From an uncultured Opitutaceae bacterium (GTDB taxonomy: Bacteria > Verrucomicrobiota > Verrucomicrobiia > Opitutales > Opitutaceae), in NCBI GenBank assembly GCA_903862935.1, contig CAIOZY010000057.1, positions 57,750-121,749 on the forward strand: a stretch of DNA of 64,000 nt, given 5' to 3'. Positions 29,651-49,463 of the stretch are shown in pieces. The translations under genes and the position numbers were made by a program. A model generated the notes under the pieces. The model was not told where the DNA came from, did no database searches, and was given only the letters and a program-made list of their open reading frames with translations. The number at the start of each line of letters is the position of its first letter. Positions within the stretch are counted from its first letter, which is position 1.

Positions 29651-30610
29651 CTAGACGGAAGAGCCCCCACCTGGGGCTCCGTCACCGAACAGGGCGCGCC
29701 AGCGCGCAAGCTCCAGGTCCAGCGCCTGCCGAATCCCCTCGCGGGCCTCCGCAGGCGGCTCCCGCCTCAGGCCCGAGAGGTAGGCGGCAAGGCCCAGGGC
29801 AAGGCGCGTTTCGGAAAAATCGCGCGGGTCCCGCATGAACTCTTCGACGTGGTGGCGGCACCAGCCGCGCAGGCCGAGCACGGCGAGGGTGTCCCGCCAG
29901 CGCAGGGTGAAGCGGTACGTGTTGGCCTCGTCATGGGTCTTGCGGCCCGGGGTCGTGCTGATGTGGTGGCGGACCCGGCTTTGCAGCGCCACCGCGTTGA
30001 GTTTCCCTGCGGCGATCGCCCGCAGGCACAGGTCCACGTCCTCGCACCCGTTCCGGTACCCCTCGTCGAACCCCCGCAGTTCGATCCAAAGCCGCCGCGA
30101 AATCAGGACGCAGGCCCCGGTCAGAAGGCTCACCTCGCGGACCGGGCAAGCCCGGCGCACCGAGGAGCGCGGGAGCACGCGGATGTGCTCGGGTTTTCCC
30201 TTGTGGTTGATGAAGATCCCGGCGTGGTCGACCTTCCCGGTCCGCGCGTCCAATTGGATGTTTCCGACGAGCCCCGCGCGGGGCCCCAGCTGCCGGTGGC
30301 CCTCGAGCATCGGCTCGAGCCAGCCGGGCCCGAGGACCAAGTCATTGTTGAGCAGGACGAGCAGCTCCCCTCGGGCGGCCGAGGAGCCCCGGTTGTTCGC
30401 CGCCGCGAAGCCAAGGTTGCGCTCGTTGAGGATCACCCGGAACGGATTCTTCAGGCCGGCAAGCCAGGCCCGGGTTCCGTCCGTGCTGCCGTCGTCGACC
30501 AAGATGATCTCGTGATCGAGCCCCTTCGGCAGGCTTGCCTGGAGGCTCCCGACCATCGCCCGGGTGAGCTCCAGGCAGTTGTACAGGGGGACGATGAACG
30601 AGACGTGCAT
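29651..30610 (-). CDS. GT2 glycosyltransferase (rhamnosyltransferase-like)
   Basis: 319 residues. The GT-A domain begins directly (VSFIVPLYNC), VDDGSTDG is at 38-45, and the donor motif NND is at 88-90 in LVLLNNDL. This NND form is common in rhamnosyl/fucosamine transferases. ATG 30610 has AAGG six bases upstream and is preferred over a GTG at 30646 that would overlap rfbA. Being next to rfbA/rfbB fits the use of a dTDP sugar. Confidence 0.85.
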   Translation of the reverse strand: MHVSFIVPLYNCLELTRAMVGSLQASLPKGLDHEIILVDDGSTDGTRAWLAGLKNPFRVILNERNLGFAAANNRGSSAARGELLVLLNNDLVLGPGWLEPMLEGHRQLGPRAGLVGNIQLDARTGKVDHAGIFINHKGKPEHIRVLPRSSVRRACPVREVSLLTGACVLISRRLWIELRGFDEGYRNGCEDVDLCLRAIAAGKLNAVALQSRVRHHISTTPGRKTHDEANTYRFTLRWRDTLAVLGLRGWCRHHVEEFMRDPRDFSETRLALGLAAYLSGLRREPPAEAREGIRQALDLELARWRALFGDGAPGGGSSV

Positions 30611-30638
30611 CCGCCTTGGGGGCAGGCCCGGGGGCCGT

Positions 30639-31517
30639 TCAGGCACTGTCGGCGAGGATACCCCTGAGATACGCGCCGTAGGCCGACTTGCCGTGCCGGG
30701 CGATGTTCGCCTCGAGACCCTTGCGATCGATCCAGCCCTGCTGCCAGGCGATCTCCTCGAGGCAGGCGATCTTGAGGCCCTGCCGGTGCTCGATCACCTG
30801 GACAAACTGGGCGGCCTCCAGAAGCGCGTCGTGGGCCCCCGTGTCGAGCCAGGCCGTCCCCCGGCCGAGCAGCTCGACGTGGAGGCGGCCCGCCTCGAGG
30901 TACAGCCGGTTCAGGTCGGTGATCTCGAGCTCCCCGCGCTTCGAGGGCTTGAGCTTGCGGGCGAGGGAGACGACCTCGGAATCGTAGAAGTAGACCCCGG
31001 GGATCGCGTAGTCGGACTTCGGTTTCTCGGGCTTCTCCTCCAGGGAGATCACCCGGCCGTCCGGCGCGAACTCGACGACCCCGTAGGCCTGCGGATTGGA
31101 GACGTGGTAGCCGAAGATCGTGGCCCCCTCCTTGCGGTCGCTGGCGCGCCGGAGGGCCTTCGTGAGCTCGTGGCCGTAGAAAAGGTTGTCGCCCAGGATG
31201 AGGGCCGAGGGCGAGTCGCCGACAAAGTCGGCGCCGATCAAGAAGGCCTGCGCGAGACCATCGGGGCTGGGTTGCTCGGCGTAGCTGAGCTTGAGCCCGA
31301 AGTGGGAGCCGTCGCCCAGGAGCCTCTTGAACAGGGGAAGGTCCTGCGGGGTCGATATGATCAGGATCTCCCGGACTCCGGAGAGCATGAGCACCGACAG
31401 CGGATAGTACACCATCGGCTTGTCGTAGACCGGCATCAGCTGCTTGCTGACCGATATCGTCAGGGGGTACAGGCGCGTCCCGGAGCCGCCCGCGAGGATG
31501 ATGCCTTTGCGCAACAT
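30639..31517 (-). CDS. rfbA: glucose-1-phosphate thymidylyltransferase
   Basis: 292 residues, normal RmlA length. The N-terminal nucleotide-binding pattern [11 protein letters not shown] and [12 protein letters not shown] are intact, and IGDN-type ILGDNLFYG is present. It joins glucose-1-phosphate and dTTP to give dTDP-glucose, the first step of dTDP-rhamnose and related deoxysugars. The gene is separated from rfbB by 89 bases that contain a possible promoter. Confidence 0.96.
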
Positions 31518-31540
31518 GGTGGGTTGGGGTTTTGCCTCCG

Positions 31541-31569
31541 ATCAAAGATCGGCCATGCCCCGCTGACAA
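31541..31569 (-). promoter_or_regulatory. possible promoter for rfbA
   Basis: On the minus strand TTGTCA (31569-31564) and TTTGAT (31546-31541) are 17 bases apart, five and four matches to the sigma70 consensus. The -10 lies in a perfect inverted repeat, CCGATC-AAA-GATCGG at 31538-31552, which could be an operator or part of an RNA hairpin. The region lies between the rfbB stop and the rfbA start. Confidence 0.35.
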
Positions 31570-31606
31570 CCGTTAACCGGCGGAAGTTTGCCGCCGGGCC
31601 GGGCGT

Positions 31607-32671
31607 CTAGGCGCTTCCGAGCCGCTCCCGGGCGTAGCGTTTCGCGGTGATCTCGGCGCACCACGCCCGGTTGGCCAGATACCAGTCGACCGTCTTCTCG
31701 ATGCCGGTGTCGAAGTTCTCCCGGGGCTTCCAGCCGAGCTCGCGGCGGATCTTGGAGGAGTCGATCGCGTAGCGACGGTCATGCCCCGGCCTGTCGGCGA
31801 CGTGTGTGATCAATTCTGCATAGGAGCGTCCGTCCGCCCGCGGGGCCTTCCGGTCGAGCAGCTCGCACACCCGTTGGACGATCTCGATGTTGGGCCGCTC
31901 GTTCAGCCCCCCGATATTGTAGGTCTGGGCGACCCTTCCCTTCCTCAGCACGAGCCAGATCGCCTCCGCGTGGTCCTCCACGTAGAGCCAGTCGCGGACC
32001 TGCTGGCCGTCGCCGTAGACCGGCAAGGGCCTCCGGTCCAGGGCGTTCAGGATCATGAGCGGGATCAATTTCTCAGGGAAATGGTACGGCCCGTAGTTGT
32101 TCGAGCAGTTGGTGGTCAGGGTCGGCAGCCCGTAGGTGTGCTGGTAGGCGCGCACCAGGTGGTCGCTTCCGGCCTTCGAGGCCGCATAGGGGGAGTTCGG
32201 CTCGTACGGCTGCTCCTCGTCCCAGGGGGCCTCGCCGGCGGCCAGGGTCCCGTAGACCTCGTCGGTGGACACGTGCAGGAAGCGGAAGAGCCCCTTCTTC
32301 GGCTCGGGCAGAGCCGACCAGTGCCGGCGCGCAGCGTTGAGGAGCCTCAGGGTCCCCAGGACGTTCGTCTTGACGAACGGCTCGGGGGAGTCGATCGAGC
32401 GGTCGACGTGGGACTCGGCCGCGAAGTTGACGATCGCGTCGAGCTGGTGCTCGGCTAGCAGGCGGGCCACCAGGGGCTCGTCGGCGATGTCGCCCTGGAC
32501 GAATCGGTAGCGGGAGTCGCCGGAGAAATCCTTCAGGTTCGCGGGGTTCCCTGCGTAGGTGAGCAGGTCCAGGTTCACGAGCCGCCCGATGTCGGCCGGC
32601 GGCCCGGAGAGCCTCTGCCGGATGAAGTTGCTGCCGATGAAGCCGCAGCCGCCGGTGACCAGGATGTTCAC
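31607..32671 (-). CDS. rfbB: dTDP-glucose 4,6-dehydratase
   Basis: 354 residues, extended SDR. GGCGFIG at 7-13 binds NAD, and the active site set T136-D137-E138 with Y162 and K166 is complete. It converts dTDP-glucose to dTDP-4-keto-6-deoxyglucose. It lies between the epimerase-reductase-like gene (10 bases upstream) and rfbA, so the three probably form one pathway. Confidence 0.96.
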   Translation of the reverse strand: MNILVTGGCGFIGSNFIRQRLSGPPADIGRLVNLDLLTYAGNPANLKDFSGDSRYRFVQGDIADEPLVARLLAEHQLDAIVNFAAESHVDRSIDSPEPFVKTNVLGTLRLLNAARRHWSALPEPKKGLFRFLHVSTDEVYGTLAAGEAPWDEEQPYEPNSPYAASKAGSDHLVRAYQHTYGLPTLTTNCSNNYGPYHFPEKLIPLMILNALDRRPLPVYGDGQQVRDWLYVEDHAEAIWLVLRKGRVAQTYNIGGLNERPNIEIVQRVCELLDRKAPRADGRSYAELITHVADRPGHDRRYAIDSSKIRRELGWKPRENFDTGIEKTVDWYLANRAWCAEITAKRYARERLGSA

Positions 32672-32681
32672 GGTTTGATCC

Positions 32682-33554
32682 TCACGTCGCCTTCTTCCAC
32701 TCGCGCAGCGCCCGGGCGACCGCCTCGTGGACCTCGGTCATGGCGATCCCGGCGCGGGCGAGCTTCGAGCCGTCCATGACGCAGTTGGACCGGGGCGTCT
32801 TCGCCGCCCTCTGCATAAACTGCGCCTCGTCCGCGAAGAACTTGAAGTCCTTGCGGCAGACTCCGCTTTTTTGGATCTGTTCGACGATCTCGTGGGTGGT
32901 CACGTGCCCGGGGTTGACGACGTTGTAGGTGCCGAACGCGACGCGCTTCTCCCAGCAGGCGAGGGTGGCCTCCACGAACTCCTGCAATTGGGAGATCGAG
33001 TTGGTGGCCTCCAGGAGCGTCTCGTAGCGCATCAGCTTCGTCAGGTAGTTGCGCGGGTTGTCCACATTGTCGAAGGGGATCCTGAGCCTCCAGACGTACA
33101 CCCGGTGCTGCCCCGCCAGGACCTCCTCGCCCAGCGCCTTGGTCCCGCTATAAAACGAGCACGGGCCCGCTCGGAAGGTGAAGTTGGGCGTGTCCTCCTC
33201 GGTGAAGCCCAGGCCGTCCGCCCGCGCCCCGTTGTAAATGCAGCCCGACGAGACGTGCCCCCAGGGAACCCCCGCCTCGGTGCAGGCCTCCGCGACGATT
33301 CCCGGAAGGACGGAGTTGCCGAGCAGGCACTCGGCCTTGTGCAGCTCGCACGCATCGACATTGGGTTTGCCGGTGTAGCCGGCCGCACAGATCAGGAATT
33401 GGGGCCTGGCGTCCCTGAGGACCTTGGCGAGCGCACCCGGGTGGGCGTAGTCGACGTCGGCTCGGGTCAGGCTCCGGAATGCCAGGCCCCGGCGCCTCAG
33501 AAGCGCCTGGTAGGCCTGCCCCACGTAGCCGGAGCCGCCGAGTAGGTAGATCAT
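32682..33554 (-). CDS. UER1/NRS-ER-like bifunctional dTDP-4-keto-rhamnose epimerase-reductase
   Basis: 290 residues, extended SDR. G6-x-x-G9-x-x-G12 binds the cofactor, Y135 and K139 (in FYSGTKALGEE) form the reductase pair. The run TGKPNVDACE, SSGCIY, TEEDTPNFTF, RIPFDNVDNPRNYLTKL and TPRSN..MDGSKL resembles the plant and viral nucleotide-rhamnose synthase/epimerase-reductase (UER1), not bacterial RmlD. C105 and K173 sit where I recall the epimerase acid/base pair of that family. If so, it performs both 3,5-epimerisation and 4-reduction, explaining why rfbC and a normal rfbD are missing here. Start ATG 33554; it precedes rfbB by 10 bases. Confidence 0.78.
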   Translation of the reverse strand: MIYLLGGSGYVGQAYQALLRRRGLAFRSLTRADVDYAHPGALAKVLRDARPQFLICAAGYTGKPNVDACELHKAECLLGNSVLPGIVAEACTEAGVPWGHVSSGCIYNGARADGLGFTEEDTPNFTFRAGPCSFYSGTKALGEEVLAGQHRVYVWRLRIPFDNVDNPRNYLTKLMRYETLLEATNSISQLQEFVEATLACWEKRVAFGTYNVVNPGHVTTHEIVEQIQKSGVCRKDFKFFADEAQFMQRAAKTPRSNCVMDGSKLARAGIAMTEVHEAVARALREWKKAT

Positions 33555-33613: not shown

Positions 33614-34363
33614 TTAGCGCCTGCGGTAGTCTCCCCGGCTGAAGTACTTCTCCAGCCACACGTACATGCAGATGAAGAAGTAGCGGCTGCCCATCTCCTT
33701 GATCTTCAACTTGGCGACCCCGTGCTTGCGGTTCTGCCAAGTGATCGGGACCACCTTCCAGGTGTAGCCGCGGACAATCGCCTTGAGCGGCAGCTCGATC
33801 GTCAGGTTGAAGTGGGGAGACAGGAAGGGGCGGCAGCCGTCGATCACCTCGCGCCGGTACGCCTTGAAGGCGTTCGTCGTGTCGTTGAGGGGTATGTGGA
33901 AAAGCACCCGGATAAACAGGTTCGCCATCCGGTTGACGAGCAGCTTGACCCGGGGGTAGTCGACAATCCGGCTGCCCCGGATGAAGCGGCTTCCAAAGGC
34001 GCACTCGCAGCCCTCGTTCAGGAGCCGCCAGTAGGTGACCGCGTCCGAGGGCGAGTCCGAGGCGTCGGCCATCATGATGACGACCGCGTCGCCGCGGGCC
34101 CTGCCCAGGCCGCAGGCGACCGCCCGCCCGAACCCGTTTGGGCCCTCGTTGCGGACCGGGACAAGCTGCGGGATCTCGCGGGCGAGGGAGGCCAGGACCT
34201 CCCAGGTCCGGTCCCGGCTCCCGTCGTCGACTACCACGATCTCGTTGGGGATACCCGCCCCGAGGAATTCTTGGTGGATCGCCCGGACCGTGTGCGGAAG
34301 AGAGGCCTCCTCGTCCCGCGCGGGGATTACGACGGAAAATAGCGTGAGGGGTTCCTTGGCCAC
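33614..34363 (-). CDS. GT2 glycosyltransferase, dolichol-phosphate-mannose-synthase-like
   Basis: 249 residues. GT-A domain with VDDGSRDRT (45-53) and acidic motif ADAS from D100. It lacks C-terminal membrane helices, so it is a soluble DPM1/polyprenyl-phosphate type. The C-terminus has WQNRKHGVAKLKIKEM, typical of this group. It probably charges a lipid phosphate with a sugar for one of the GT-C-like membrane proteins. Stop of the next gene upstream is 11 bases away. Confidence 0.87.
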   Translation of the reverse strand: MAKEPLTLFSVVIPARDEEASLPHTVRAIHQEFLGAGIPNEIVVVDDGSRDRTWEVLASLAREIPQLVPVRNEGPNGFGRAVACGLGRARGDAVVIMMADASDSPSDAVTYWRLLNEGCECAFGSRFIRGSRIVDYPRVKLLVNRMANLFIRVLFHIPLNDTTNAFKAYRREVIDGCRPFLSPHFNLTIELPLKAIVRGYTWKVVPITWQNRKHGVAKLKIKEMGSRYFFICMYVWLEKYFSRGDYRRR

Positions 34364-34374: not shown

Positions 34375-35445
34375 CTAGAGCGGTGCGGACACGTCCAGCC
34401 AGTCGGGGTGGGCCTCAGCGTGGGCGGCGATTTCGGCGAGGATCGCGTCAGTGGGGGTCTGGGCCCGCCAGGACCAGACCCGCGCGGCCTTCGAGGAATC
34501 CAGGACCATCCAGGGAATGTCGAAGCGGCGCTCTGCCGGGTCGGGCCTGACCTCCCGGCCGCCCCAGCGGGCCTCGCACCAGGCGCTCACTTGCCGCAGG
34601 GACCGGGCCGAGCCCGCGCCGCCGGAGAGGTTCACGATGCGGTCCTCCGAGGGAAGTTTCGGCGCGGAAAACTGCTTCACCAGAAGCGGCAGCAGGTCCC
34701 CGGGGTGCAGGCAGTCGCGGACTTGGTGGCCAAGGCCCCCGAACCCGATGTACTTGAGCGGCCGCCGGCGCAGCCAGCTGTTGAGCCAGAACGAGAAGAT
34801 CCCCTGGTCGGCCCTGCCGAACTGGCCGGCCCCGGCGAGGACGCCGCAGCGGTTGACGAAGACGGGCAGGGCGAAGGCCTCGCCGTACTCGAGGGCCAAG
34901 CACTCGCTGGCGAGCTTGGTCGCCCCGTACAGCGACACGGGGGGGCGGGTCGGGAACGTCTCCGAGACCCCCTCGGGCCCGAAGCCCGGGACGTTGCGGT
35001 CAAAGACCGGGCTGAAGGCCCCGGCCTTCGTCTCGAGACTGAGGGCGGCCAGGGGCTCGATCGAGTAGACCCGGCTGGTGCTCAGCAGGATGAACCCGGA
35101 GCGGTGGCTCTTGCAGTACTCGAGCAGGTTCACGGTCCCGACCAGGTTGTGCTCGACCGTCTGCCGGGAACTCATTTTCCCGTCGGCCCCGGCCAGCACA
35201 CTCGGGTTCGCCGCGGCGTCGATCACCCAGTCGCAGGCCGGAAGGGCCTCCAGGTCGCTCGCCGAACGCAGGTCCGCGTGGAACAGCCGCACCCCGAGTT
35301 TCTTCAGGTCCGGGCGGTTCGTTTCGCTCCCGGGCCGGCTGAAGTTGTCAAACCCGCACAGTTCGTCGCCGGCGCGGGCCTGCGCCAGGGCCCGCGCCAG
35401 GGCGGAGCCGGCAAACCCGCATACGCCGGAGATCAGGATTCGCAT
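34375..35445 (-). CDS. NAD-dependent nucleotide-sugar epimerase, CDP-paratose-2-epimerase-like
   Basis: 356 residues, extended SDR. The N-terminus GVCGFAG (7-13) is the cofactor loop and YGATK gives the Tyr/Lys pair. SRVYS and FVNRCGVLAGAGQFG fit the CDP-paratose/tyvelose epimerase subgroup. No CDP-glucose pathway genes are seen in the window, so a different nucleotide sugar may be the substrate. A second gene of the same subgroup lies at 36137. Confidence 0.78.
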   Translation of the reverse strand: MRILISGVCGFAGSALARALAQARAGDELCGFDNFSRPGSETNRPDLKKLGVRLFHADLRSASDLEALPACDWVIDAAANPSVLAGADGKMSSRQTVEHNLVGTVNLLEYCKSHRSGFILLSTSRVYSIEPLAALSLETKAGAFSPVFDRNVPGFGPEGVSETFPTRPPVSLYGATKLASECLALEYGEAFALPVFVNRCGVLAGAGQFGRADQGIFSFWLNSWLRRRPLKYIGFGGLGHQVRDCLHPGDLLPLLVKQFSAPKLPSEDRIVNLSGGAGSARSLRQVSAWCEARWGGREVRPDPAERRFDIPWMVLDSSKAARVWSWRAQTPTDAILAEIAAHAEAHPDWLDVSAPL

Positions 35446-36136: not shown

Positions 36137-37195
36137 CTAGGCGCCCCGCTTCCTCCAGGCCTCGACGATCTGCCGGACGGTGTCCTCAAGGGTCTGGGTG
36201 ATGTCCCAGCCGGGGTAGTGGGAGCGCATCTTGCGCAGGTCCGAGTAGTAGCAGATGTGGTCGCCCGAACGGGCCTGCTCGACGTAGGTGTGGACCTGGC
36301 GCCTTCCGCTATAGCGCTCAGCAAGCGCAAAGGCCTCCAGAATCGAGGCACTGTTCGCCTTGCCGCCCCCCAGGTTGTAGACCTCACCCACCCGCGGGGC
36401 CGCGACGAAGGCTGCGATGAACCGGGCGACGTCCAGGGCGTGGATGTTGTCGCGGACCTGCTTTCCCTTGTAGCCAAAGACGCGGTACTCGCGGCCCTCG
36501 AGGTTGCACTTGACCAGAAAGCTCAGGAATCCGTGCAGCTCGACCCCGGAGTGGTTGGGCCCGGTGAGGCACCCGCCCCTCAGGCAGCAGGTCGGCAGCC
36601 CGAAGTACCGCCCGTACTCCTGGACGAGGACGTCGGCGGCGACCTTGGAGGCACCGAACAGCGAGTGTTTGGACTGGTCGATCGTGAAGCTTTCGGGAAT
36701 CCCGGCCTCGTAGGCCGGATCGGCGTAGTCCCAGCGGGTCTCAAGCTCCTTGAGGGCGATCCGGTTGGGCGCGTCCCCGTAGACCTTATTCGTGCTCATG
36801 TGCGCGAACGGCGCCTCGGGGGCGGCCCGCCGGGCGGCCTCGAGCAGGTTCAGGGTCCCGACCGCGTTCGTGTCGAAGTCGTCGAAGGGGATGGCCGCCG
36901 CCCGGTCGTGGCTCGGCTGGGCCGCCGTGTGAACGATCGCCGAGGGCTTGACCTCGGCCACCAAGGCCAGAACGCCCTGGCGGTCGCGCATGTCCAACTC
37001 GTGGTGGCGAAACCCGGGCAGCTCGCGCTCGAGCCGCTTCTGGTTCCAGCGGGTGTCGCCGGGCGGCCCGAAGAAAACGGCCCTCTGGTTGTTGTCCAGC
37101 CCGTGGACCGACCAGCCGAGCTCGCGCGCGAAATACGCGCACACCTCCGATCCGATCAATCCCGACGAGCCGGTCACGAGGACAGTCTTGGGCAT
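36137..37195 (-). CDS. NAD-dependent epimerase, CDP-tyvelose/paratose-epimerase-like
   Basis: 352 residues, extended SDR. GSSGLIG at 9-15 binds NAD. In place of Y-x-x-x-K it has F-G-A-S-K (in [12 protein letters not shown]), so the usual tyrosine is phenylalanine. [13 protein letters not shown] and [13 protein letters not shown] are strong landmarks of a subgroup annotated as CDP-paratose 2-epimerase. ATG 37195 is chosen where homology begins. It lies upstream of the GspC-like gene and 68 bases downstream of the acyltransferase gene. Confidence 0.8.
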
Positions 37196-37263
37196 GGCTA
37201 GGAAGTCAGGTTGCGCGATTCCCCGGCCGGACTGAATCCAAATCTTGGGCCCGGGGAAGGCCC

Positions 37264-38382
37264 CTAGGTCCACCGGTCGCGCAGGCGGGTCGTGGGCCGC
37301 TCAAACCAGCGGTAGACCGCCGCGCTCACGGCCACGGTCCCGACCATGAAGGCGGCGAAGGAGGCCCAGCCCTGGAGGGGGGAGGTCTGGTTCATGGGGA
37401 AGATCCGGTCGCGCAGCAGCCGGTGGAGCGGCAGGTGGACGAGGTACATCGAGTACGACCAGCGGGCGATTGCGCCGGCCGAGGCGTTGAACCAGCGGTT
37501 CCGGGTCGCCAGCGTCCGCTGGGCCTGGGGCAGCAGCAGGGCGAACCCGAGCGAGACCAGGTTGAAGCGGATCGTCCGGTCGAACAGGCTCTGGTTCTGC
37601 GCGTCGGGCCAATACAGGGTCGCGTAGCAGGCGATGAGAAGTGCCGTCCCGGCGAGGGCAAAGGCCCGCGGCGAGCGGGCGAAGGCGAGCGGGTGGCGCC
37701 GGCACACCCACGCGGCGAGGATCCCGGTCATCAGGGCGTCGAAACGGATGAGCACGATCTCGCGGAGATCCTCGGACCAACCGTTGGCCGGGTTCAGGGC
37801 GTAGCCCAGACGGCCGAGCGTGGAGCCCAGGTACAGGCTGATCCCGACCGCCAGGAACGCGGTGCCGAATTTCCGGCCGGTGCGCAGGACAAGCCAGACC
37901 CCGAACGGAAACAGCAGGTAGAACCACTCCTCTATGCACAGACTCCACGACTCCAGGAAAAAGAAGGTCTTGCGCTGGGCGAAGGTCTGCAGAAACAGCG
38001 CGTAGCCGCCGACCCGGCCCCAGGGGACGGCCTGGGGAAAGACCCAGACGATGAGCGCGAGGTTCACCAGCAAGAACAGGTAGTAGTTGGGCAGGGTCCT
38101 GAACCAACGCCGGGCGTAGAAGCGGGCGAGCTCGCGCCCGTGCTCGAGCCGGGGCCCGATGTCGAGCAGGAGCCCGCCGATCAGGAATCCGCTTAAGACG
38201 AAGAACAGCTCGACCCCGTAGTAGCCGCTGTGGCCGAGGTGGTACAGGCCCAGCCGGATCCCGCCCAGCTCGAGCGCGGGGACGTGCGGGTACAAGAAGA
38301 CCAGGCCGTGCGACAGGACGACCCCTCCGATCGCCAGGGCCCTCAGGACGTCCAGCCCGATGATGCGGGGGCCCGAGCTCAT
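37264..38382 (-). CDS. acyltransferase family 3 membrane protein (OafA/YrhL type)
   Basis: 372 residues with about ten membrane helices. The N-terminal [16 protein letters not shown] carries the family R and H residues, and [14 protein letters not shown] and [17 protein letters not shown] are the following signature helices. These enzymes O-acetylate or otherwise acylate polysaccharides and lipid-linked sugars. The ATG at 38382 overlaps the stop of the upstream membrane-protein gene as ATGA. Confidence 0.9.
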
Positions 38383-40058
38383 GGGTTTGCCGGGTCCTCC
38401 CACCCGGCCAGGTCGCGCAGGATGAAGGCCGCCGGCACTGCAGCGCCTAGGACCAGTGCGGCCAGGGCCGCGGGATTGCCCGGGCTGCCGAAGCCCGTGG
38501 CCGGGGGCAGCCACACGAAGGCGAAGAACGCGGCCTGTGCGGCCGCGACTCCCGCGAAAGCGACTTTCCCCAATAGCCTCAGGCCCGCGGCGGCCAGGCA
38601 AAGTAGCGCGATCGGCAGGGTGTACGACCCCTGGTGGACCAGGGCCGAGCGTGCCTCAAACATCAGGGCGATCCACGCGGCGAAGGTGGCCGCCGACCAC
38701 AGGCCGACGCCCCGCACGGCCCGCAGGGATTCACGGCCCCTGCGGAGGCAGGCGGCCGCGACCAGGGCCGCCGCACCGGCGGACCAAAGGCCGGTGGCGC
38801 GCACGAGAAAGAAAAACTCGTCAGCCCGCTCCCGCCCGGGATCGGCCGCCGGGTGCCGCGGATCGGGCCAGGCCCCGTCGACCACCGTCTTCAGGTTGGC
38901 GAGCCGGTTGCCCAGGGCGCCCCGCAGTCCGACCCGGGAATAGGCCTCGCGGATCGTCTGCCAGGTGCCCCTTGAGTCCACGGCGACCTGGCCGGCCAGG
39001 TGCCATTTCACGAGCCGGTTTCCCGGAGGGGCGTAGAACCTCTGGAAAGCCGACCACGGTAGGCAGACCAGGACAAAGACCGCCGCGGCGAGGACCCAGG
39101 GTCCGGCCCTGCGACGGATCAGGGCGGAGACAGCCCACGGCGCAAGCCCCAGGAGGGCGAAAGCCACGCCCCCGTGGGCCATCCAGCCCAGCCCCGCCCA
39201 CAGGCCAGCCAGGGCGAACCGCCGCCGCTGGACCGCGGGATCGCCCGGGGGCTCGAGCAGGACAAGGCAGAAAGCGCCGCAAACTAGGGCCCCGGCCCCG
39301 AGCTTGGGCCAGACGTAGAGCGTGTTCAGGAGGAAGAATCCGGTGAAGGTGAGCGCACCGGCCGCCGCCGCGCCACCGGCGGGCCTGAGCCCGATTGTCC
39401 GCAAGAGGCCGTAGCAGGCGGCGACCCACAGCACCTGCATCCAGATTCCGGCTGCGCCCGCCGAGAGGGCCGGTTCGAGCCCCAGGGCGTCGGTGACCGG
39501 CCGGGTGATCAGGCTCCAGCCCGACTGGAGGGGCGGCCGGTCGCTTGTCAGCCAGTCCCCGAAGAGCACGCGGGAGCACGAGCCGGAGTAGACGGAGTCG
39601 GCCAGCACAAAGGGGATCGTGTTGTCGCTGGGCAGGCCCGAGATGAACCGGTTGGCTGCCCGGTCGCTGAACGCCCGGTACGCCTGGGGCGCCGGACAAA
39701 GGTACAGCGCTCCTAGGTAGAAAAGCCCCGCGCCGCAGGCAAGGAGGACCACCGGGGCCACCTCGGACCGCCCGGGCCCACCGGGTTGCGGCCGGCTTCC
39801 CCGAAGCGACCGCCAGCACAACCCCGCGCTCCCGGACACGAGGGCGACCGAGAGAAACACCCCCAAAGCAGGCGAGAGAAAATAAGCCCAGAAGACGACG
39901 AGGGCGCACCCGGCGACCCCCGAGCCCGCGGCGAGCGCGGCCCATGGGGCCGGGATCCAGGACAGGCGGCGCACCCCGATGAGAACGGCGAAAAAAATCG
40001 GGGCAAGGAGCACCCCGTTCACCGCCCAAGCCAGCACGGCCAGCGCCAGGGACATCAT
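38379..40058 (-). CDS. polytopic membrane protein, GT-C-like
   Basis: 559 residues, roughly twelve hydrophobic helices and little soluble sequence. A periplasmic loop around RLLPSDNTIPF-like SGLPSDNTIPF and GDWLTSDRPPLQ matches the style of GT-C transferases or polymerases, where acidic loop residues act on polyprenyl-linked sugars. Family is not clear. Start ATG 40058 overlaps the GT2 stop (ATGA); ATG 40055 is equally possible. Confidence 0.68.
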   Translation of the reverse strand: MMSLALAVLAWAVNGVLLAPIFFAVLIGVRRLSWIPAPWAALAAGSGVAGCALVVFWAYFLSPALGVFLSVALVSGSAGLCWRSLRGSRPQPGGPGRSEVAPVVLLACGAGLFYLGALYLCPAPQAYRAFSDRAANRFISGLPSDNTIPFVLADSVYSGSCSRVLFGDWLTSDRPPLQSGWSLITRPVTDALGLEPALSAGAAGIWMQVLWVAACYGLLRTIGLRPAGGAAAAGALTFTGFFLLNTLYVWPKLGAGALVCGAFCLVLLEPPGDPAVQRRRFALAGLWAGLGWMAHGGVAFALLGLAPWAVSALIRRRAGPWVLAAAVFVLVCLPWSAFQRFYAPPGNRLVKWHLAGQVAVDSRGTWQTIREAYSRVGLRGALGNRLANLKTVVDGAWPDPRHPAADPGRERADEFFFLVRATGLWSAGAAALVAAACLRRGRESLRAVRGVGLWSAATFAAWIALMFEARSALVHQGSYTLPIALLCLAAAGLRLLGKVAFAGVAAAQAAFFAFVWLPPATGFGSPGNPAALAALVLGAAVPAAFILRDLAGWEDPANP

Positions 40059-40780
40059 AATTTCTGGAAACGGTACTTCACCAGCGCCCTGATCCACGTG
40101 GGCGGGTCCCGCCAGATCCGGATCTTCTTTCCGGCCTGGAACGAGCGGGACCGGTAGCTGATCGGCACCTCGATCGGCCGGTAGCCCTTGCGCACGAGCT
40201 TGACCAGCAGCTCCCAGTCGAAGTCGAACCGGTTGCACTCGAACGACAGGTCCTTGATGCAGTCCCGGCGGAACACCTTGTACATCGTGAAGGGGTCCTT
40301 CAGCCGCGTGCCCAGCGCCACGTTGACCATCAGCGTGAAGGTCCAGTGGGCGAGGTTCAGGGCGAGCGCCCGCAGGGGCTCGCCCGCGAACTTCCGGATG
40401 GCCCATCCCGCCTCGCCGTGGCGCGAACCCAGGACGAAGGCTTGGCGGCCCGACAGGATGGGCGCCAGCAGGCTCTCGTAGTCGTCCAGGTCGTACTCGA
40501 GGTCCGCGTCCTGGATGAGCAGGACCTCGCCGCTGGCCTGGGCGAAGCCGGCCCGGACGGCGTGGCCCTTGCCCAGCGGGCGGTCCTCGAGGACGATCTT
40601 AACCCGGGGGTGGTCCCGGTAGGCGAGGACCTCCTCGCGGCTCCCGTCGGACGAGTTGCTCTCGATGATGATGACCTCGATCTCGGTCCCGGGGAGCTCC
40701 TTGGAGACAATGGCCTTCAGGGCCTCCTTGACAGTGGAGCCCTCATTGTAGACGGGGACGATGACGGAAAGTTTGCTCAT
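40055..40780 (-). CDS. GT2 glycosyltransferase, polyprenyl-phosphate type
   Basis: 241 residues. GT-A fold with PVYNEGSTV at 9-17, the donor/metal motif D91-A-D93-L in IQDADLEYD, and the C-terminal YRSRSFQAGKKI characteristic of dolichol-phosphate glucosyl/mannosyl synthase relatives. No membrane helices. It would load a sugar onto lipid phosphate for the membrane transferase encoded directly downstream with a four-base overlap. Start at ATG 40780 is set by the ATGA overlap with the upstream gene. Confidence 0.88.
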   Translation of the reverse strand: MSKLSVIVPVYNEGSTVKEALKAIVSKELPGTEIEVIIIESNSSDGSREEVLAYRDHPRVKIVLEDRPLGKGHAVRAGFAQASGEVLLIQDADLEYDLDDYESLLAPILSGRQAFVLGSRHGEAGWAIRKFAGEPLRALALNLAHWTFTLMVNVALGTRLKDPFTMYKVFRRDCIKDLSFECNRFDFDWELLVKLVRKGYRPIEVPISYRSRSFQAGKKIRIWRDPPTWIRALVKYRFQKL

Positions 40781-43272
40781 TTCGGGGGGGGCTGCCGCCC
40801 GGGGAACTTTTCCGAAGCCCAGAGGCTTCCCGCGATCAGCGCAAGCGCGGCCGCTGAAATCCCGAGCATCAGGTAAAATCCGCGCGGCCGGTACCGGACC
40901 ACCACCCGGTGGAGCCCCGCCGACGGGATCGGGATCCCCTGAAAGGCGTGGTTTACCCTCACCAGGCGGACAGGCTGGCCGTCGAGCTCCGCGTGCGGGT
41001 AGCCCGGCCACCACACCTCGCTTAGGACCGCCAGCCCGGGGCCGGTCGCCGCCACGGAAAATGCGGTCGAGTTGCCGGTGAGTTCATAGGCGGTCGCGGG
41101 AACGACGGACCGGCCCGCCAGGTTTGAGGGGAGCGCAGCCAGGGCGGGGCTTGAGGCGATCTCGGGAGCCTGGGCCGCGGCAAAGGGGCGCCCGTCCCCT
41201 CCCTGGATCAGACCCATCAGCTGGGGCGCGGCGGCGTAGGCGGCGAGCCGGTCGGTGAAGAAGGCCCGGGGCCAGGCGGTGCGGCTCTCGTAGACGTCCA
41301 GGTCGCCGGTCCGCACGAGCCTGAGAACGGCCCCGAGGGCCCCCTGGTCGCTTCTCAGGTCGAGGTAGTACCTCACGTTCAGAAAATCGAGGAAGGGCCG
41401 GGATGAGGCGAGGTTGTCGCGCGACAGGTACAACCTCCAGCCCCTCTCCATCCGCAGCGCCGAAAGCCCGGCCAGCTCCCGGTACCTCGGGTTGATGAGC
41501 GGCTCCGGGCCGTTGATCCCCTCCAGTCCGTAAACGGCCGACCAGCCCGCGAAGAAGTTGTTCTGGAGCCCGATCGACCGGCTGGGCTCCAGCGCCTGGG
41601 TCTTCTGGACGAGGCTCATCGCAGCCGAGCGGGCGCGGAAGTTCGCGCGCAGGGTCGGGTGCAGGACGTACGTGTCGGGCCCGATCCCCGGAGCCTGCTG
41701 CCCGTGGCGCCAGAGGAGGGCCGCCGTGCAGACCGCCAGGCCGAGGCCGAGCGCGGGAGTGACCTTTCCCCGCGCGAGGGCCCTGCGCGCCAACAGGCCC
41801 AGCCCGGCCAGCGCCGCGAGCAGCGACCCCAGGTACACCCACAGGAAGCGGCTGACCGGGATTGACTCAAGAGGACGCAAGGGGGCGAACCGCGTGTCGT
41901 CGGAAACGACGTCCCGGTGCACGACCTGAAGGAAGGCGATGTAGGAGAAAACCAGGGCGAACAGGAGCAGGCCGGCGATCACCAGGTCGCCCCGCCCGTC
42001 GCGGGTCCCGAGGCGGCGGGCTGCCGCGGCAAATCCGATCCCGGCCAGGACAACCCACAGGATGATCAGCGGGCACAGGAACGAGTCGTCCACGTGCACC
42101 ATGTTCCCGAGGAAGGGGACCCTCACGATCCACGCCGCCGGAACCAGGCCGAAGGACAGGGACAGGGGGACAAGCGCGCTTGCGGCAAGCGCCATCGCGG
42201 CCCGGTTGCCAAAGTGGCTCCTGAGGGTCGCCGCGAAGTAAACGAGGCCCGCTAGGACCAGGAAGTTCGCGGAGGGGTTGAAGACCCAGCCCTCCCGGCT
42301 CAGGGGCCGGAAGAAGGCCTCATCAAACCCCGCTAGGAGCAGGCTCGGCCGGATCTGGAAGGCGCCGGGATCGTTGTAGGCGGTGTAGGAGCCCTTGAGG
42401 GCGGCCGCGAACGAATACCAGATCGGCAGTGACAGCCCGAGGAAGAGGAGCCCCGCCCAGCAGGCCCCGGCGGTCTTTAGCAGGCGATCCCTCCAGGGAG
42501 CCGCCGAGCCCAGGAGGACCAGGACTCCCGCGAGGTTCAGGCATAAGAGCGCGGCGTAGGCCTCCTTCGCTGTCCCGGAGTTGATTAGGGCGAGGTTCGC
42601 CAAAATGAGCCCGGCCGCCCAGCGCGCGAAGGCTCGGGCCCCCGGGGCACCCGCGCAGCGGATCCAGCAGTACAGGGGCCAGGGGGCGTAGCACAGGGTG
42701 AAGATCGCCGGGTGGTTCAGCCGGTAGACGAAAAATCCCAGAAACGGGGCCGCCAGCGCCGTGATCGCGGCAGGCCCCAGCTGGGCGGTCAATTCCAGGA
42801 CGATCAGCCCGAGGCCAAAGGCGAGCAGCCACTTGGCGAGAAGGTACTTCAGATCCCAGGCCCAGGCGGCCCCGTCTGCCGCAACGGGAATCCAATGCAG
42901 CGGATCGGCGATCATGCTGAACCCCTGGGCCAGAAGCGGGGTTCCGCCGGAGTTGTAGCGGTTCCATACAGGAAGCTCGCCGTCTTTTAAGATCGAGCGG
43001 TGCTGGACCATCGAGAACGGGACGAACTGCCACATGATCGCGCCGACGTCGGCGTGGTTGGGGTCAGTCGTGCGGGTCTCGCGGTAGCCGGGCAGGGTGG
43101 GGAACTGGTCGTAAAGCAGGATCGTCCCGAAGTTCGGGGATACGTGGCTTTTGCCCATGAAGACCACAGGGTAAGTGCTCGCGATCACGGCGGCGGCCGC
43201 GACCGCGGCGAGGATTCGGGCCGGGCGGGCCGCGAAGAGCGCAGCCAAGAGTGAGCCGTTTAGCCGGGTCAT
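40777..43272 (-). CDS. YfhO-family membrane protein
   Basis: 831 residues. About twelve helices are followed by a periplasmic domain of about 250 residues and a final helix near 800-820. PVWNRYNSGGTPLLAQ is the YfhO-type signature in the first loop, and the end, HRVVVRYRPRGFYL, is the family's typical last strand and helix. YfhO relatives take part in glycosylating lipoteichoic acids or surface glycans; the exact substrate is unknown. It is coupled on both sides by four-base overlaps. Confidence 0.82.
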   Translation of the reverse strand: MTRLNGSLLAALFAARPARILAAVAAAAVIASTYPVVFMGKSHVSPNFGTILLYDQFPTLPGYRETRTTDPNHADVGAIMWQFVPFSMVQHRSILKDGELPVWNRYNSGGTPLLAQGFSMIADPLHWIPVAADGAAWAWDLKYLLAKWLLAFGLGLIVLELTAQLGPAAITALAAPFLGFFVYRLNHPAIFTLCYAPWPLYCWIRCAGAPGARAFARWAAGLILANLALINSGTAKEAYAALLCLNLAGVLVLLGSAAPWRDRLLKTAGACWAGLLFLGLSLPIWYSFAAALKGSYTAYNDPGAFQIRPSLLLAGFDEAFFRPLSREGWVFNPSANFLVLAGLVYFAATLRSHFGNRAAMALAASALVPLSLSFGLVPAAWIVRVPFLGNMVHVDDSFLCPLIILWVVLAGIGFAAAARRLGTRDGRGDLVIAGLLLFALVFSYIAFLQVVHRDVVSDDTRFAPLRPLESIPVSRFLWVYLGSLLAALAGLGLLARRALARGKVTPALGLGLAVCTAALLWRHGQQAPGIGPDTYVLHPTLRANFRARSAAMSLVQKTQALEPSRSIGLQNNFFAGWSAVYGLEGINGPEPLINPRYRELAGLSALRMERGWRLYLSRDNLASSRPFLDFLNVRYYLDLRSDQGALGAVLRLVRTGDLDVYESRTAWPRAFFTDRLAAYAAAPQLMGLIQGGDGRPFAAAQAPEIASSPALAALPSNLAGRSVVPATAYELTGNSTAFSVAATGPGLAVLSEVWWPGYPHAELDGQPVRLVRVNHAFQGIPIPSAGLHRVVVRYRPRGFYLMLGISAAALALIAGSLWASEKFPGRQPPPK

Positions 43273-45137
43273 TTCGAAGGAGAAGGTGTGGCCTCACCGG
43301 CGCCGCTCGACGAACAAAATCGTGTGAAAAGCCCCCAGGCGAGGACCAGGGCCGCCGCCAGGGCGGAGACCTCCGCGATAAGGGGCCCGTTTCTAATTGC
43401 CCTCCAGGCGCCGTAGGAAAGGGGGGCCATCTCGACCGGCTCGCTGAAGGCGATCCAGCGGGCGGGATCCGGGGCGGCGGCCCTCACGATGAACTCCCCG
43501 TCGGGGGCCCGCACGTAGGCCGACCTCCAGGTGTCGCCGGGAAGACGGCTCGGCCGCACCTGCACGATCGCCGAGCCGGTTCGCGGATCGGCCAGCTCCA
43601 GCCCGCCCGCCTCCCGTCCGGCCACCTCGAAGCGAAGCCAGCCGTGGAGCCGGGCCCTGAGGGGGGCGCTCTCCCAGCTCGCCGCCCCCCGGCCGTAGGA
43701 GCCCCAGCTCGCCCGCAGGACGAGGGGCGCCGTCGGCGGCGAGACCCCTCCCCGGTCCCCCGGAGCAAAGCCGGCGCAGGAAGCCTCGCTCAGATGCAGG
43801 GGCTCTCTGACGCTCCCCGGAAGCAGGGCCCTCAGGGCCGGGGTCCCGAGCCGCTCGGCGAGAACCTTCGGGTCGGGATAGGGGATCTCGATGTGGTTGA
43901 GGTAGGCGGTGTCGCCCGAGGCGAGATAATGGCGCACATTCTCCTCGCAGTAGAAGTTTTCCGTCCGCACGGCCGGCAGCTCGGAGCCGAAGATCCGCCG
44001 GGTCTGGCCCCATGCCCCGAGGAGAAAGACCGAGATCCACAGCGAGCCCAGGACCGAGAGGCGCGCCGACCGGGCCAGTCCGGCCTGCCGGGAGAGCCAC
44101 CCTATCGAAAGGGCGTTTACGAGCGCCCCGAAGACCAGGGTGTCGCTGTAGCGGGAGGCGGGCCAGGGCGCGCCGGCGCCGCGGGCGTAGGCGGTTGCCC
44201 CGACCTGAAGGAGGACCCAGGCGCCCAGGCCCGCGAGGATCACGCCGGCCTCCCGGCCCTCGCCGCCGCGCCGCGCTAGCCGAAGGCTCAGCCAGGCCCA
44301 GGGGGCCCAGACAACAAGCGCCGCCCACGCCCAGCGGTCCTCGCCGCTGGGCCACTGAAGGGAGCGGACGCTCGTCAGGAGAAAATCCGAGACCGTGTGC
44401 GCCCGGAGCGCCTCGTGGTAGCCGACGCTCACGCGGGTGAAAACGCCCGCGGCGACGAGCCCCGCGCACAGGCAAAGCCCCGGAAGGATAGACCGCAGCG
44501 GGCGGCTCCGGCGGAACCCCCGGGCGGCCAGGATTCCCCCGGCGACCGCCGGCGCGAACAGACCGGTTGCGAGGCTGCCCATCGCCCCGAGCGCCGCCCC
44601 GGCGCCGAGCCACCAGCGCAGGCCCCAGGGCCGGGCGTCCGGCAGGAGGGCGATCGCCGCAAGCGAGAAGGCAACCAGGAAAAGCTGCTGGGAGTGGAAC
44701 CCGTAAAGGATGTTCTGCCAGGCCAGGGGCAGCGCGTAGGCCGAGGCTAGGAGGACAAACAGGATCCCCTGCCTCCTCCGGCCCCAGGCCCGCAGGCCCA
44801 GGGCGAACAGCCCTGCGGAGATTGCCGCCGCGATGAGCGCGTTGAAAGCGCACTCCAGCCGCTGGTCCCACTGCCCGTCGGCGGCCGCCAGGGCGAGGCT
44901 CGCCAGCTTCGTCAGGACGACCCGGTGCTCGTTGTGGGGCGCAAGGAGCATCTCCGGGGTGAGCCGGTGCTCGGCCCAGGGCGCGAGCAGGTTCAGGCCC
45001 TCGGCGTCCCACTGGTCCCAGCTCGGCAGGTCGGAGCCGTAGCGGTCGAGAACCGTCCAGCGGGCCCCGATCACGATCCCCGCTAGGCAGACGAGCAGCG
45101 CGGCGAGCCGCAGGCGGGCTTTCGCTGCGGTCGGCAT
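43269..45137 (-). CDS. polytopic membrane protein with periplasmic C-terminal domain
   Basis: 622 residues. Around eleven helices in 1-370, then a soluble beta-rich part to about 590 and a final helix around 585-605. The first loop has LPSWDQWDAEG and HNEHRV, conserved-looking acidic and histidine residues. It resembles other hypothetical membrane proteins in polysaccharide loci; no named family recognised. Its stop overlaps the start of the YfhO gene (ATGA), and only two bases separate it from the multi-GT2 gene upstream. Confidence 0.65.
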   Translation of the reverse strand: MPTAAKARLRLAALLVCLAGIVIGARWTVLDRYGSDLPSWDQWDAEGLNLLAPWAEHRLTPEMLLAPHNEHRVVLTKLASLALAAADGQWDQRLECAFNALIAAAISAGLFALGLRAWGRRRQGILFVLLASAYALPLAWQNILYGFHSQQLFLVAFSLAAIALLPDARPWGLRWWLGAGAALGAMGSLATGLFAPAVAGGILAARGFRRSRPLRSILPGLCLCAGLVAAGVFTRVSVGYHEALRAHTVSDFLLTSVRSLQWPSGEDRWAWAALVVWAPWAWLSLRLARRGGEGREAGVILAGLGAWVLLQVGATAYARGAGAPWPASRYSDTLVFGALVNALSIGWLSRQAGLARSARLSVLGSLWISVFLLGAWGQTRRIFGSELPAVRTENFYCEENVRHYLASGDTAYLNHIEIPYPDPKVLAERLGTPALRALLPGSVREPLHLSEASCAGFAPGDRGGVSPPTAPLVLRASWGSYGRGAASWESAPLRARLHGWLRFEVAGREAGGLELADPRTGSAIVQVRPSRLPGDTWRSAYVRAPDGEFIVRAAAPDPARWIAFSEPVEMAPLSYGAWRAIRNGPLIAEVSALAAALVLAWGLFTRFCSSSGAGEATPSPSK

Positions 45138-45139: not shown

Positions 45140-48100
45140 TCAGGGAAGCGGGGGCGTCCTCGGCGGGCAGGCGAGCGCGAAGTCCTCCGAATCGAGCGAA
45201 AGGTTCGGGTTGTAGGCCGGGTCGTTAAGGAGCCGACCCGCCCAACGCGCCTGGACGGCGGCGATCTCCCCTTGGAAGCGGAGCACCTTCTCCGGGGTAT
45301 TCTCCTGGCCGCGGCTGGCCGACTCGTGGTGGATCAACTCGGCGAAGGGCGTGTAGACGTTGCGGTAGCCCCGGGCCTCGACCTTCAGGCAGAAGTCGAC
45401 GTCGTTGAAGGCGACCGGCAGGCCTTCGGCGTCAAACCCGCCCGCCTCGAAGAAGATCGACTTGCGCACGGCCAGGCAGGCCGCGGTCACCACCGACACG
45501 TTCTGGGCCAGGTGCGGCCGGAACTGGGGCGTCCCGGGGTCGTTGCGGGCAAAGCCCTTGAAGGCGTGCCCGGCCACCCCGCCGATTCCCGTGATGACAC
45601 CGGCGTGCTGCAGGCGCAGGTCCGGGTAGTAGAGCCGGGCCCCGACGGCCCCGACCTCCGGCCGCAGGGCCTGCGCCACCAGTTCGCCGAGCCAGCCCGT
45701 TCCGAGGACCTCGATGTCGTTGTTGAGCAGGCACAGGACCGAGCCCCGGGCCTGCTCTGCGGCGAAGTTGGTGATCGCCGAGTAGTTGAAGGGCCGGTCG
45801 TAGTCGAGGAGGCGGACCCCGTTCTCCCGGGCGAGCTCCGAAAACAGGGCCAGGGCCTCGGGATCGTCGGAGCGATTGTTGACCAGCAGGATCTCGTATG
45901 GGGAGTAGTCGGTCCGGGCGATGATCGAGGCGACGCACACCCGCACGAGGCCCGCCGCGTTGTGGGTCGGGATGATGATCGACACCAGCGGTGGCTGGGG
46001 GGGCAGGGGATGGGCGACCCGCCAGTGGCCTCCGACCGTCGGCAGCACCGGTGCGGGGCGCTCCACCCGCGCCAAGTGCGCGGCAACGGCCCTGCGGCCG
46101 GAGTCGGAGGCGTAAGTCTTCTCGCCCAGGCTCAGGGCGGTAGAGCCCTCGCCCGCGCGCCAGTGGTAGAGAACGCGCGGGACATGCCGGATCGCGCCCG
46201 CCGGGGCGCGCTCGCTCACGCGCAGCACCAGGTCCCAGTCCTGGCTTCCCTCCAGGCCGGGCCTGAGCCCGCCCAATTCGCGCAGGGTCGCCGTCCGGAA
46301 GACCGCCAGGTGGGACACGTAGTTTTGCCCCAGGATCAGCTCCGGGTTCCAGTCGGGCTTGAAGTGCGGGTCGAAGCGGGTGCCCTGCTCGTCGATCTTG
46401 TCCTCGTCGGTGTAGACAAGCTCGGCGTCCGGGTGCCGGGCGATCTCGCAGGCCACGCAATACAGGGCGTGGGGGGCGAGCTCGTCGTCGTGGTCAAAGA
46501 GGGCCGTGTAGTCGCCGCTCGCCAGCTGCAGGGCCGAGTTGGTGGCCCTGCAGATGTGCCCGTTTTCCGCTCGGTAGGTGACGCGGATCCTCGGCTCTTC
46601 GAGGGCCGCCCGCTCGATGACCTCGCGCACATGGGGCTTGGTGGAGGCGTCGTCGGCGATGCACAGCTCCCAGTGGGGGTAGACCTGGACCCGGACCGAG
46701 GTAATCGCGCGCTCGAGCCAGCCCTTGTCGGGGTTGAAGACCGGCATCAACACCGAGATCTTCGGCGCGGGCGATAGGACGCGGGCCGCGGCCCGCACCG
46801 ACTCCAGCTGCTCGGGGCTGAGCGTGTCGTAGGTGCGCACCCAGTGCTCGTAGGATCCGGGCTCGGCCTCCGCATCGGGGGAGCTCAGCGGCCGGTCCAG
46901 GAACGTCTGCCAGCGCCCGTCCGGTCCGAGAGCCTCGAGGACAACTGAGCGGTCCTCGGGAAGCAGCAGGACCTCGACCTTGAAGCCGCTTGTGGCGCAC
47001 TGCGGGCTGCCCGGGTGCGCGCGCAACAGGTCCGGCCTCCCCGTCCCGCACACCCCCTCATGGATGCGCCCGCCCACCCGGGCGCGGAGCCCCTGGATCG
47101 GGGCGGCGTCCTCGCGGAAGCACCAGCCGCGGATCACGACCGGCCCGCTCTGGCGGCGCCAGGAGCGCGGGGCGTCGATGTGGTGGACAAATCCGCTGCC
47201 GTGGACGGGAACCGGTGCGGCGCCCGGCGCCGGGGCCCGGTTGTTCTCGAAGGCCCGGCGCAGGGCGCGCAGGCCCGAGGTCGCCCGCCAGGAAAACGAG
47301 GCCTGCATGCGCCGCACCTTGTCAGAGCTCTTCTCGAGGGCACTCTCCAACTCGGCGGCCCGCCGACTCAGGGCCTCGATCTCGCGGGCGTCCACGCGGC
47401 GCCGCTCCGCGGCCTCGGCGCGGACGGTCGCCAGCAGGTTGTCGAGGGCCTTCTGGGAGTTCTCGAGGAGAAACAGGCTCGACCGGCGGATGCGGTCGCG
47501 CTGGGTCCAGGCCTGCGCCTCCAGCGCATGCGCGGCCCGCGCGGCGGCCAGCTGCTCATTCAGGCGCTCGACTCGGGGGTCGCGCACGAGGCCCGCCAGG
47601 TGGGGCCAGATCCGGCGCCAGGCCGGGAGGGCTCCCTCGAAGGCCGGGGCCGAGGCGGCTGCGGCGCTCGCGAGCTCCGTGTGGCGCCGGGCGTTGCTTT
47701 CCCTCGCGAGGCGGTAGTCGAAGAGGGCGGCCGGGACCGAGGCGAGCGTTCCGGCCCCGAGCGCAACGCGGAGCAGAAACTGCCAGTCCTCGCTCGCCCC
47801 GCGGTTGTCGGTGGGGAAGCCTCCCAGAAAAAGAAAGCGGTCCCGGCGGGCGATGAAGTTGGTGTCCCCGAGGACGTTCTCCACGAGCGCGAGCTCGTCG
47901 CAGGGCCCGAGGGGGATGAAGCGGTAGCCGCCCCCGCCTGCGGGCAGGTCGCCGTCGGGCTCGGCGTCGAAGCCGCAGGATACGCAGTCGGCCCCGGTGG
48001 AGGCCAGGGCCAGCGCCAGGGTTCCTATCATGTCCGGGTGGAACCGGTTGTCCGCGTCGCAGAATAGCACAGCCTCGCCGCGGGCCTCCCGCGCGGCCCG

Positions 48101-48928: not shown

Positions 48929-48956
48929 TCGGGGAGGCTCCCATTTCGGGGCGGGC

Positions 48957-49463
48957 CTATTGCAGCCGGCATCTGACATAGGTTGAGCAAAGTTGAGCCT
49001 TGGTCGAGGTTGGAGTTGCCTTAGGACGATGAGCCCGTGCGCCGAGCTTGGCTGAGACGACAGTGAGGAGTCCGAGGACATCATCGGCGAGGGAGGCACC
49101 TATGGACTTTGGCGCGCCGTCCTCGAGCACGGTGACCTTGACTCCGGGCAGGGGCAAAGTTGGAAGATCAAATCGCTGCCGAAGTGCCGCAAGCGAGCGG
49201 GAAACCCCTTTCAGGGAATTGACCCCAGCCGACAGCGAGTGCCTGGGGGTGAATGCCATAAGCCAGGGAACACGACCATCCTTGCCGCCCATCTCCGACA
49301 CCTTCCCTCCGAAGTCAGCAATGACGGCGATTGACGGGCCCCGCAACTGCTCGCGCACCCGATCGGTGATGAAACCGCTCGGGCATTTGGGGACAACGAC
49401 CAAGTGGGCGATCAGGGCGTAAACTATGTTCCTTCCCCTCCGGATGTTGTCTCCAGACGGCAA
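48957..49463 (-). CDS. TnpA-like Y1 transposase lacking its catalytic residues
   Basis: 168 residues. The N-terminus RRGRNIVYALIAHLVVV and the central LSAGVNSLKGVS match the IS200/IS605 TnpA fold. The HUH motif, normally HVH in the strand before LSALVNSLKG, here reads RVP (GRVPWLMAF), and the catalytic tyrosine region shows no tyrosine (KVTVLEDGAP). The frame itself is uninterrupted. It therefore cannot be expected to cut single-stranded DNA. Start is TTG 49463, which fits the family N-terminus. It is divergent from tnpB, with about 23 bases between starts. Confidence 0.65.
   Translation of the reverse strand: MPSGDNIRRGRNIVYALIAHLVVVPKCPSGFITDRVREQLRGPSIAVIADFGGKVSEMGGKDGRVPWLMAFTPRHSLSAGVNSLKGVSRSLAALRQRFDLPTLPLPGVKVTVLEDGAPKSIGASLADDVLGLLTVVSAKLGARAHRPKATPTSTKAQLCSTYVRCRLQ

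Follow-up and report, generated by a model that had tools for sequence, protein, structure and literature searches.

Our analysis concerns a 64,000-nucleotide stretch of DNA from an uncultured Opitutaceae bacterium (the window), in which a gene of NRS/ER (UER) type, here called the ER gene, lies next to rmlB and rmlA. The ER gene stands at the slot held by rmlC and rmlD in sister genomes, and the exchange between the two gene sets has been repeated in place. We consider it very probable that its product, a predicted bifunctional 3,5-epimerase and 4-reductase, gives deoxythymidine diphosphate (dTDP)-L-rhamnose. Synthesis of this sugar nucleotide in bacteria is taught as a pathway of four enzymes. 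In the available text of a 2022 review (PMC8987622), its last two steps are assigned to separate enzymes in bacteria. NRS/ER enzymes are known in plants, fungi and giant viruses, as described in the accessible parts of three papers (PMC3220709, PMC6556577, PMC9614988). Our search of the open-access literature returned no characterised bacterial ER enzyme and no report of an rmlA-rmlB-ER operon or of a replacement of rmlC-rmlD.

Family placement of the ER protein

The ER gene reads from an ATG at 33554 to a stop codon ending at 32682 on the minus strand and encodes 290 residues. A first-pass annotation, made from the sequence alone, had recognised a chain of five motifs in this protein (TGKPNVDACE, SSGCIY, EEDTPNFTF, PRNYLTKL and TPRSN) and likened it to plant and viral UER1-type enzymes. 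All five motifs are present, at residues 61, 102, 119, 167 and 253, and the best-matching solved structures are of NRS/ER type, ahead of RmlD: a sequence search of the PDB gave 131.5 bits for 4qqr (plant NRS/ER), 66.3 for 7jid and 33.0 for RmlD, and a search with a profile of the family gave 180, 109.5 and 62.1 bits, respectively. The likeness extends to predicted structure, in that an AlphaFold2 model of the protein (pLDDT 94.3) matches 7jid. The annotation was also right that the gene does not look like rmlD. On the RmlD equivalog TIGR01214, its sole NCBIfam match at E 0.001, the ER protein scores 81.1 bits, 143 below the cut-off of 224, whereas five RmlDs of sister genomes score 316–332 bits; the GDP-L-fucose synthase model NF047922 (GDPFucSynFcl) gave no match. 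In Pfam, the protein matches only PF04321 (the RmlD family, at the top with 93 bits) and PF01370, with no match to the RmlC family PF00908.

The four residues proposed to make up an epimerase-like and a reductase-like active site (C105, Y135, K139 and K173) are all found in the protein and align with C115, Y144, K148 and K183 of the Arabidopsis enzyme, of which we take C115 and K183 to be the epimerase residues; the suggested correspondence of C105 and K173 to epimerase positions is thus borne out. Both occur in 34/34 NRS/ER-type rows and in 0/16 RmlD rows, and neither varies across 42 aligned bacterial relatives. In a 50-row tree with RmlD as the only outgroup, bacterial, eukaryotic and viral NRS/ER sequences are split from RmlD with support of 100/99, and the order within the NRS/ER side is weak (34/29 for the bacterial group). 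Eukaryotic relatives were sought with a two-sequence profile, and the best 120 of 7995 matches were mostly plants, with mimivirus and two longer proteins near the top; because of this composition, eukaryotes are thinly sampled in the tree, and any direction of descent read from it would be tentative.

The ER gene slot and its exchange

The ER gene, rmlB, rmlA and two family 2 glycosyltransferase genes, GT2b and GT2a, are close-packed on one strand, with 10 bases between the end of the ER gene and the start of rmlB and an 8-base overlap between rmlA and GT2a. As the first-pass annotation had stated, rmlA (rfbA) and rmlB (rfbB) are canonical, both exceeding their NCBI equivalog cut-offs.

29651..30646, minus strand: GT2a, family 2 glycosyltransferase (PF00535), downstream flank; order kept in relatives
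30639..31517, minus strand: rmlA, glucose-1-phosphate thymidylyltransferase, 292 residues; TIGR01207 486.8 bits (cut-off 360.65)
31607..32671, minus strand: rmlB, dTDP-glucose 4,6-dehydratase, 354 residues; TIGR01181 485.6 bits (cut-off 365.1), PDB 1bxk 446.5 bits
32682..33554, minus strand: ER gene, NRS/ER (UER)-type, 290 residues; open reading frame, motifs, PDB matches 4qqr and 7jid, AlphaFold2 model; predicted bifunctional 3,5-epimerase/4-reductase
33614..34363, minus strand: GT2b, family 2 glycosyltransferase (PF00535), upstream flank of the slot; order kept in relatives
34375..35445, minus strand: SDR34378, NAD-dependent epimerase/dehydratase-family protein (PF01370), upstream flank; found beside both slot types
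36137..37273, minus strand: SDR36140, NAD-dependent epimerase/dehydratase-family protein (PF01370), further upstream and conserved

The ER gene with its rhamnose cassette is not a chance pattern, because the profile scores far exceed noise and most of 80 named relatives show the same gene order. These relatives (the best 80 of 109, 66–76% identical) are mostly titled Opitutaceae, Opitutae, Opitutus or Verrucomicrobia. Where at least 3 kb is available on each side (54 loci), RmlB lies beside the ER gene in 51, RmlA in 53 and both in 50. GT2b is found upstream (>150 bits) in 51/80 loci; when more than 250 bits at a distance of at most 3 kb is required, it is found in 34 of 65 loci that have 3 kb upstream. 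RmlC (E 1e-8) and RmlD (>150 bits) were sought in all 80 loci and found in none.

The window's assembly comprises 3.35 Mb in 62 contigs and is 95.55% complete. The earlier remark that no rfbC is present holds across it: a PF00908 search that was positive in 11/14 control genomes returned no match, so that an RmlC hidden elsewhere is ruled out for PF00908 within the assembly at its stated completeness. An RmlD elsewhere was likewise rejected, with no match above the equivalog cut-off and the ER gene itself as the best match, at 80 bits. Among 155 genomes drawn evenly from the phylum, the best ER matches fall into two classes, at least 270 bits in 20 genomes and at most 41 bits in 135. Strong RmlC matches (at least 125 bits) occur in 4/20 ER-bearing genomes versus 102/135 others (Fisher p 2.5e-6, uncorrected for kinship); weak-only PF00908 matches (32–39 bits) occur in G045 among the former and in G013 and G066 among the latter. 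The RmlD equivalog cut-off was passed in none of 15 ER-bearing genomes searched, four of which (G085, G140, G131 and G088) have RmlD-like matches of 113–145 bits below it.

In the window's own family, the ER gene is present in 147 of 200 genomes (a visual count of matches at E ≤ 1e-40), and in another 21 no match is better than E 2.6e-14. Any PF00908 match at all is found in 32 of the 200. We classed 30 of these according to how closely their RmlC resembles that of G099, leaving out G045 and G319, both ER-bearing, in which the matches are weak (34 and 25 bits): 14 genomes have a canonical RmlC (69–99% identical) and 16 a divergent one (31–45%). RmlD adjoins the canonical RmlC in all 14 genomes (in G160 it is cut by the contig end), and none of the 14 has the ER gene.

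Some family genomes stand out in how the ER gene is represented. Four contigs of G168 carry an ER match each, with nearly equal scores, and eight matches, partial among those listed, occur in G312; these are either repeated cassettes or assembly artefacts. A stop codon lies inside the match or frame in G199, G189, G217, G227, G240, G339 and G158, whose ER matches may represent broken genes, gene ends or sequencing errors. G010 has two ER-RmlB-RmlA cassettes (L139 and L140), whose ER proteins are 76% and 75% identical to that of the window.

Wider stretches, fetched for 21 of the 30 classed genomes (12 canonical and 9 divergent RmlC loci), place the canonical pair in the slot of the ER gene. 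RmlB and RmlA lie directly downstream of RmlC-RmlD in 10/12 canonical loci and are orthologous to those of the window (RmlA 73–79% and RmlB 71–78% identical); in the other two, the contig ends inside RmlD (L182) or neither gene is found in 6 kb downstream (L191). GT2b lies upstream in 9/12, at 67–85% identity; it is missing from L174, whose contig ends after 2.2 kb, and the sole GT2-type match in L176 and in L178 is distant (30%) and farther away. Both flanks are present in 7/12 canonical loci, which is the slot that the ER gene occupies in the window, G010 and G091. None of the nine divergent RmlC loci adjoins RmlA or a close RmlB. Both states of the slot are seen in single-contig genomes, with RmlC-RmlD in G099 (6.0 Mb) and the ER gene in G091, and a single genus (g2) holds both, with the ER gene in G010 and RmlC-RmlD in G221 and G244.

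Quick trees of the flanks, with SH-aLRT support only, indicate that these states changed repeatedly. For the two flank proteins upstream of the slot, a tree of 56 loci (8 of them with RmlC-RmlD) requires 7 state changes, at least 4 of them forced by well supported branches, and the RmlB plus RmlA tree (81 loci, 10 with RmlC-RmlD) requires 8, again with at least 4 forced. Because these numbers are near the means of shuffled states (7.6 and 9.7, respectively), the slot states are close to scattered over the flanks.

The region has several other features of note. SDR34378 and SDR36140 travel with the cassette, and the PF01370 family match assigns a specificity to neither; SDR36140 is 77–87% identical where found in RmlC-bearing loci of the family, mostly above the identity of RmlA and RmlB there. 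The same cluster encodes a 1319-residue protein (45140-49099, minus strand) with three family 2 glycosyltransferase matches in a single chain, and reading frames of 622 residues (43269-45137, minus strand) and 675 residues (38379-40406, minus strand) have no Pfam match at E 1e-5. A scan of the window with Rfam at gathering scores gave no match.

Predicted pathway and alternative explanations

The three-gene RmlA-RmlB-ER route to dTDP-L-rhamnose is a prediction from sequence and gene context. RmlA would make dTDP-glucose, and RmlB would convert it to the 4-keto-6-deoxy intermediate, dTDP-4-keto-6-deoxyglucose. For the ER protein, we infer both chemical steps and the residue roles by homology: C105 and K173 would act as an acid/base pair that inverts C3 and C5 within one active site of the short-chain dehydrogenase/reductase (SDR) type, and Y135 and K139, with bound NAD(P)H, would then reduce the C4 ketone. 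The dTDP-L-rhamnose would presumably be used by the family 2 glycosyltransferases encoded nearby, in a cluster for a surface polysaccharide. We infer the stereochemistry of the product and the nucleotide as well. The rmlA and rmlB context points to a dTDP-linked substrate, and both this substrate and a dTDP-L-rhamnose product are favoured because orthologous RmlA, RmlB and glycosyltransferases accompany either gene set.

The ER gene co-occurs with RmlC in 12/16 genomes of the divergent class. In the phylum, four genomes (G042, G054, G072 and G152) carry the ER gene together with a strong RmlC, which counts against simple exclusion; all four belong to one genus, which the protein matches of one member mark as being of Methylacidiphilum type. 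The RmlC of G042, the sole one of the four whose neighbours were scanned, adjoins a glucose-1-phosphate cytidylyltransferase-like gene (280 bits, below the cut-off of 300). The ER gene of the same genome (locus L126, 6461-8624) does not adjoin rmlA or rmlB and is followed by a sugar aminotransferase-like gene, and because of this arrangement the ER gene of that genus may have another role or operon. When the Methylacidiphilum-type ER sequence was used for a protein search, a Pirellula metagenome-assembled genome was among the matches listed, and for this reason the ER family may extend past one phylum.

Some points would favour an ordinary RmlD, a 4-reductase only, with rmlC either located in sequence that the assembly lacks or replaced by an unrelated epimerase. 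A gene could be missing from an assembly that is 95.55% complete, the top Pfam match is to the RmlD family, and public databases often name the bacterial relatives dTDP-4-dehydrorhamnose reductase, with 3,5-epimerase/4-reductase given for some members. However, the ER gene occurs without any RmlC match in five family genomes that are single contigs (G018, G088, G091, G122 and G140), the gene is absent from all 14 genomes with a canonical RmlC, C105 and K173 are not RmlD residues, and the TIGR01214 score falls far from those of the sister RmlDs. We therefore regard this explanation as very unlikely. It is somewhat easier to imagine, although still improbable, that the protein is bifunctional and makes another 6-deoxy-L-hexose (for example, dTDP-6-deoxy-L-talose) or acts mainly on a substrate linked to uridine diphosphate (UDP). 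The stereochemistry of hydride delivery and the choice of nucleotide cannot be read from sequence, and UDP is favoured by characterised NRS/ER enzymes in the available text of PMC6556577. Against this, RmlC-RmlD share the slot beside orthologous RmlA and RmlB in 10/12 loci, which suggests the same product and nucleotide, and rmlA scores above the thymidylyltransferase equivalog cut-off.

Instead of functional replacement, the slot exchange could itself reflect chimeras in metagenome assemblies or the swapping of entire cassettes. Many of the genomes and most of the named loci are metagenome-assembled, and the states would also be scattered over the quickly built flank trees if cassettes recombined as a whole. 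Yet single-contig genomes show both states, the two flanks were tested separately and each forces at least four changes, and even a cassette swap would leave either gene set alone with the same RmlA and RmlB. We consider an origin in artefacts or cassette swaps extremely improbable, and replacement of rmlC-rmlD by a bifunctional ER gene, or the reverse, remains our preferred interpretation.

Known enzymes, origin and implications

The closest characterised counterpart is Arabidopsis NRS/ER (UER1; 4qqr), with the C-terminal domain of plant RHM, which is likewise a single-domain SDR with the corresponding Cys, Lys, Tyr and Lys at aligned positions (91/268 aligned residues identical in this best sequence match). 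The window protein differs in being bacterial, in lying beside dTDP-type rmlA and rmlB, in its identity of only about 30–34% and in having no dehydratase fusion. The mimivirus L780 UDP-L-rhamnose synthase (UGER; 7jid) is 23–24% identical and UDP-based, and it departs from the TGKPNV motif at P64 and N65. RmlD has in common with the ER protein its fold, catalytic Tyr and Lys, operon neighbours and PF04321 match, but it lacks C105 and K173, needs RmlC and lies across the 100/99 branch. GDP-L-fucose synthase (GMER) acts on a GDP sugar. It resembles the ER protein as a single SDR that both epimerises and reduces with a catalytic cysteine (available text of PMC9614988), but it scores only 25 bits with the ER family profile. 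In the Prymnesium parvum fusion described in the accessible part of PMC6556577, one polypeptide also performs the same two steps, on dTDP and UDP sugars, but it consists of an RmlC part and an RmlD part, unlike the one SDR domain of the window protein.

Yin et al. 2011 (PMC3220709) reported four bacterial homologues of the RHM C-terminal half, all from Verrucomicrobia, which probably belong to the same bacterial ER family. For them, the available text of that study describes neither an operon nor a loss of rmlC-rmlD nor an exchange in place, and it calls the manner and time of origin of the first such gene unknown. A tentative possibility, which we think has well under an even chance of being correct, is that the rmlA-rmlB-ER operon represents, in living bacteria, the prokaryotic donor postulated in that study. 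Such a donor would have been a bacterial dTDP-rhamnose operon with a single SDR gene already serving both final steps, and plants, fungi and giant viruses would owe their UDP-rhamnose pathway to it (as ER, and as RHM after fusion to the neighbouring dehydratase). On this view, the operon in present-day Opitutaceae would be an interchangeable module that displaced rmlC-rmlD, or vice versa, several times in place. The origin of the plant RHM C-terminal half, left unknown in the accessible text of PMC3220709, now becomes testable.

If the predicted activity is correct, a pathway that is in fact complete is misread wherever annotation labels the ER gene RmlD and detects no RmlC, and a bifunctional bacterial enzyme of dTDP type would shorten the in vitro synthesis of dTDP-rhamnose. 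The repeated exchange of one gene for two is a natural experiment in which a bifunctional SDR would take the place of an epimerase and a reductase. One bacterial family would, on the same condition, rely mainly on a three-enzyme route to dTDP-L-rhamnose, given the 147 of 200 sampled genomes that carry the ER gene.
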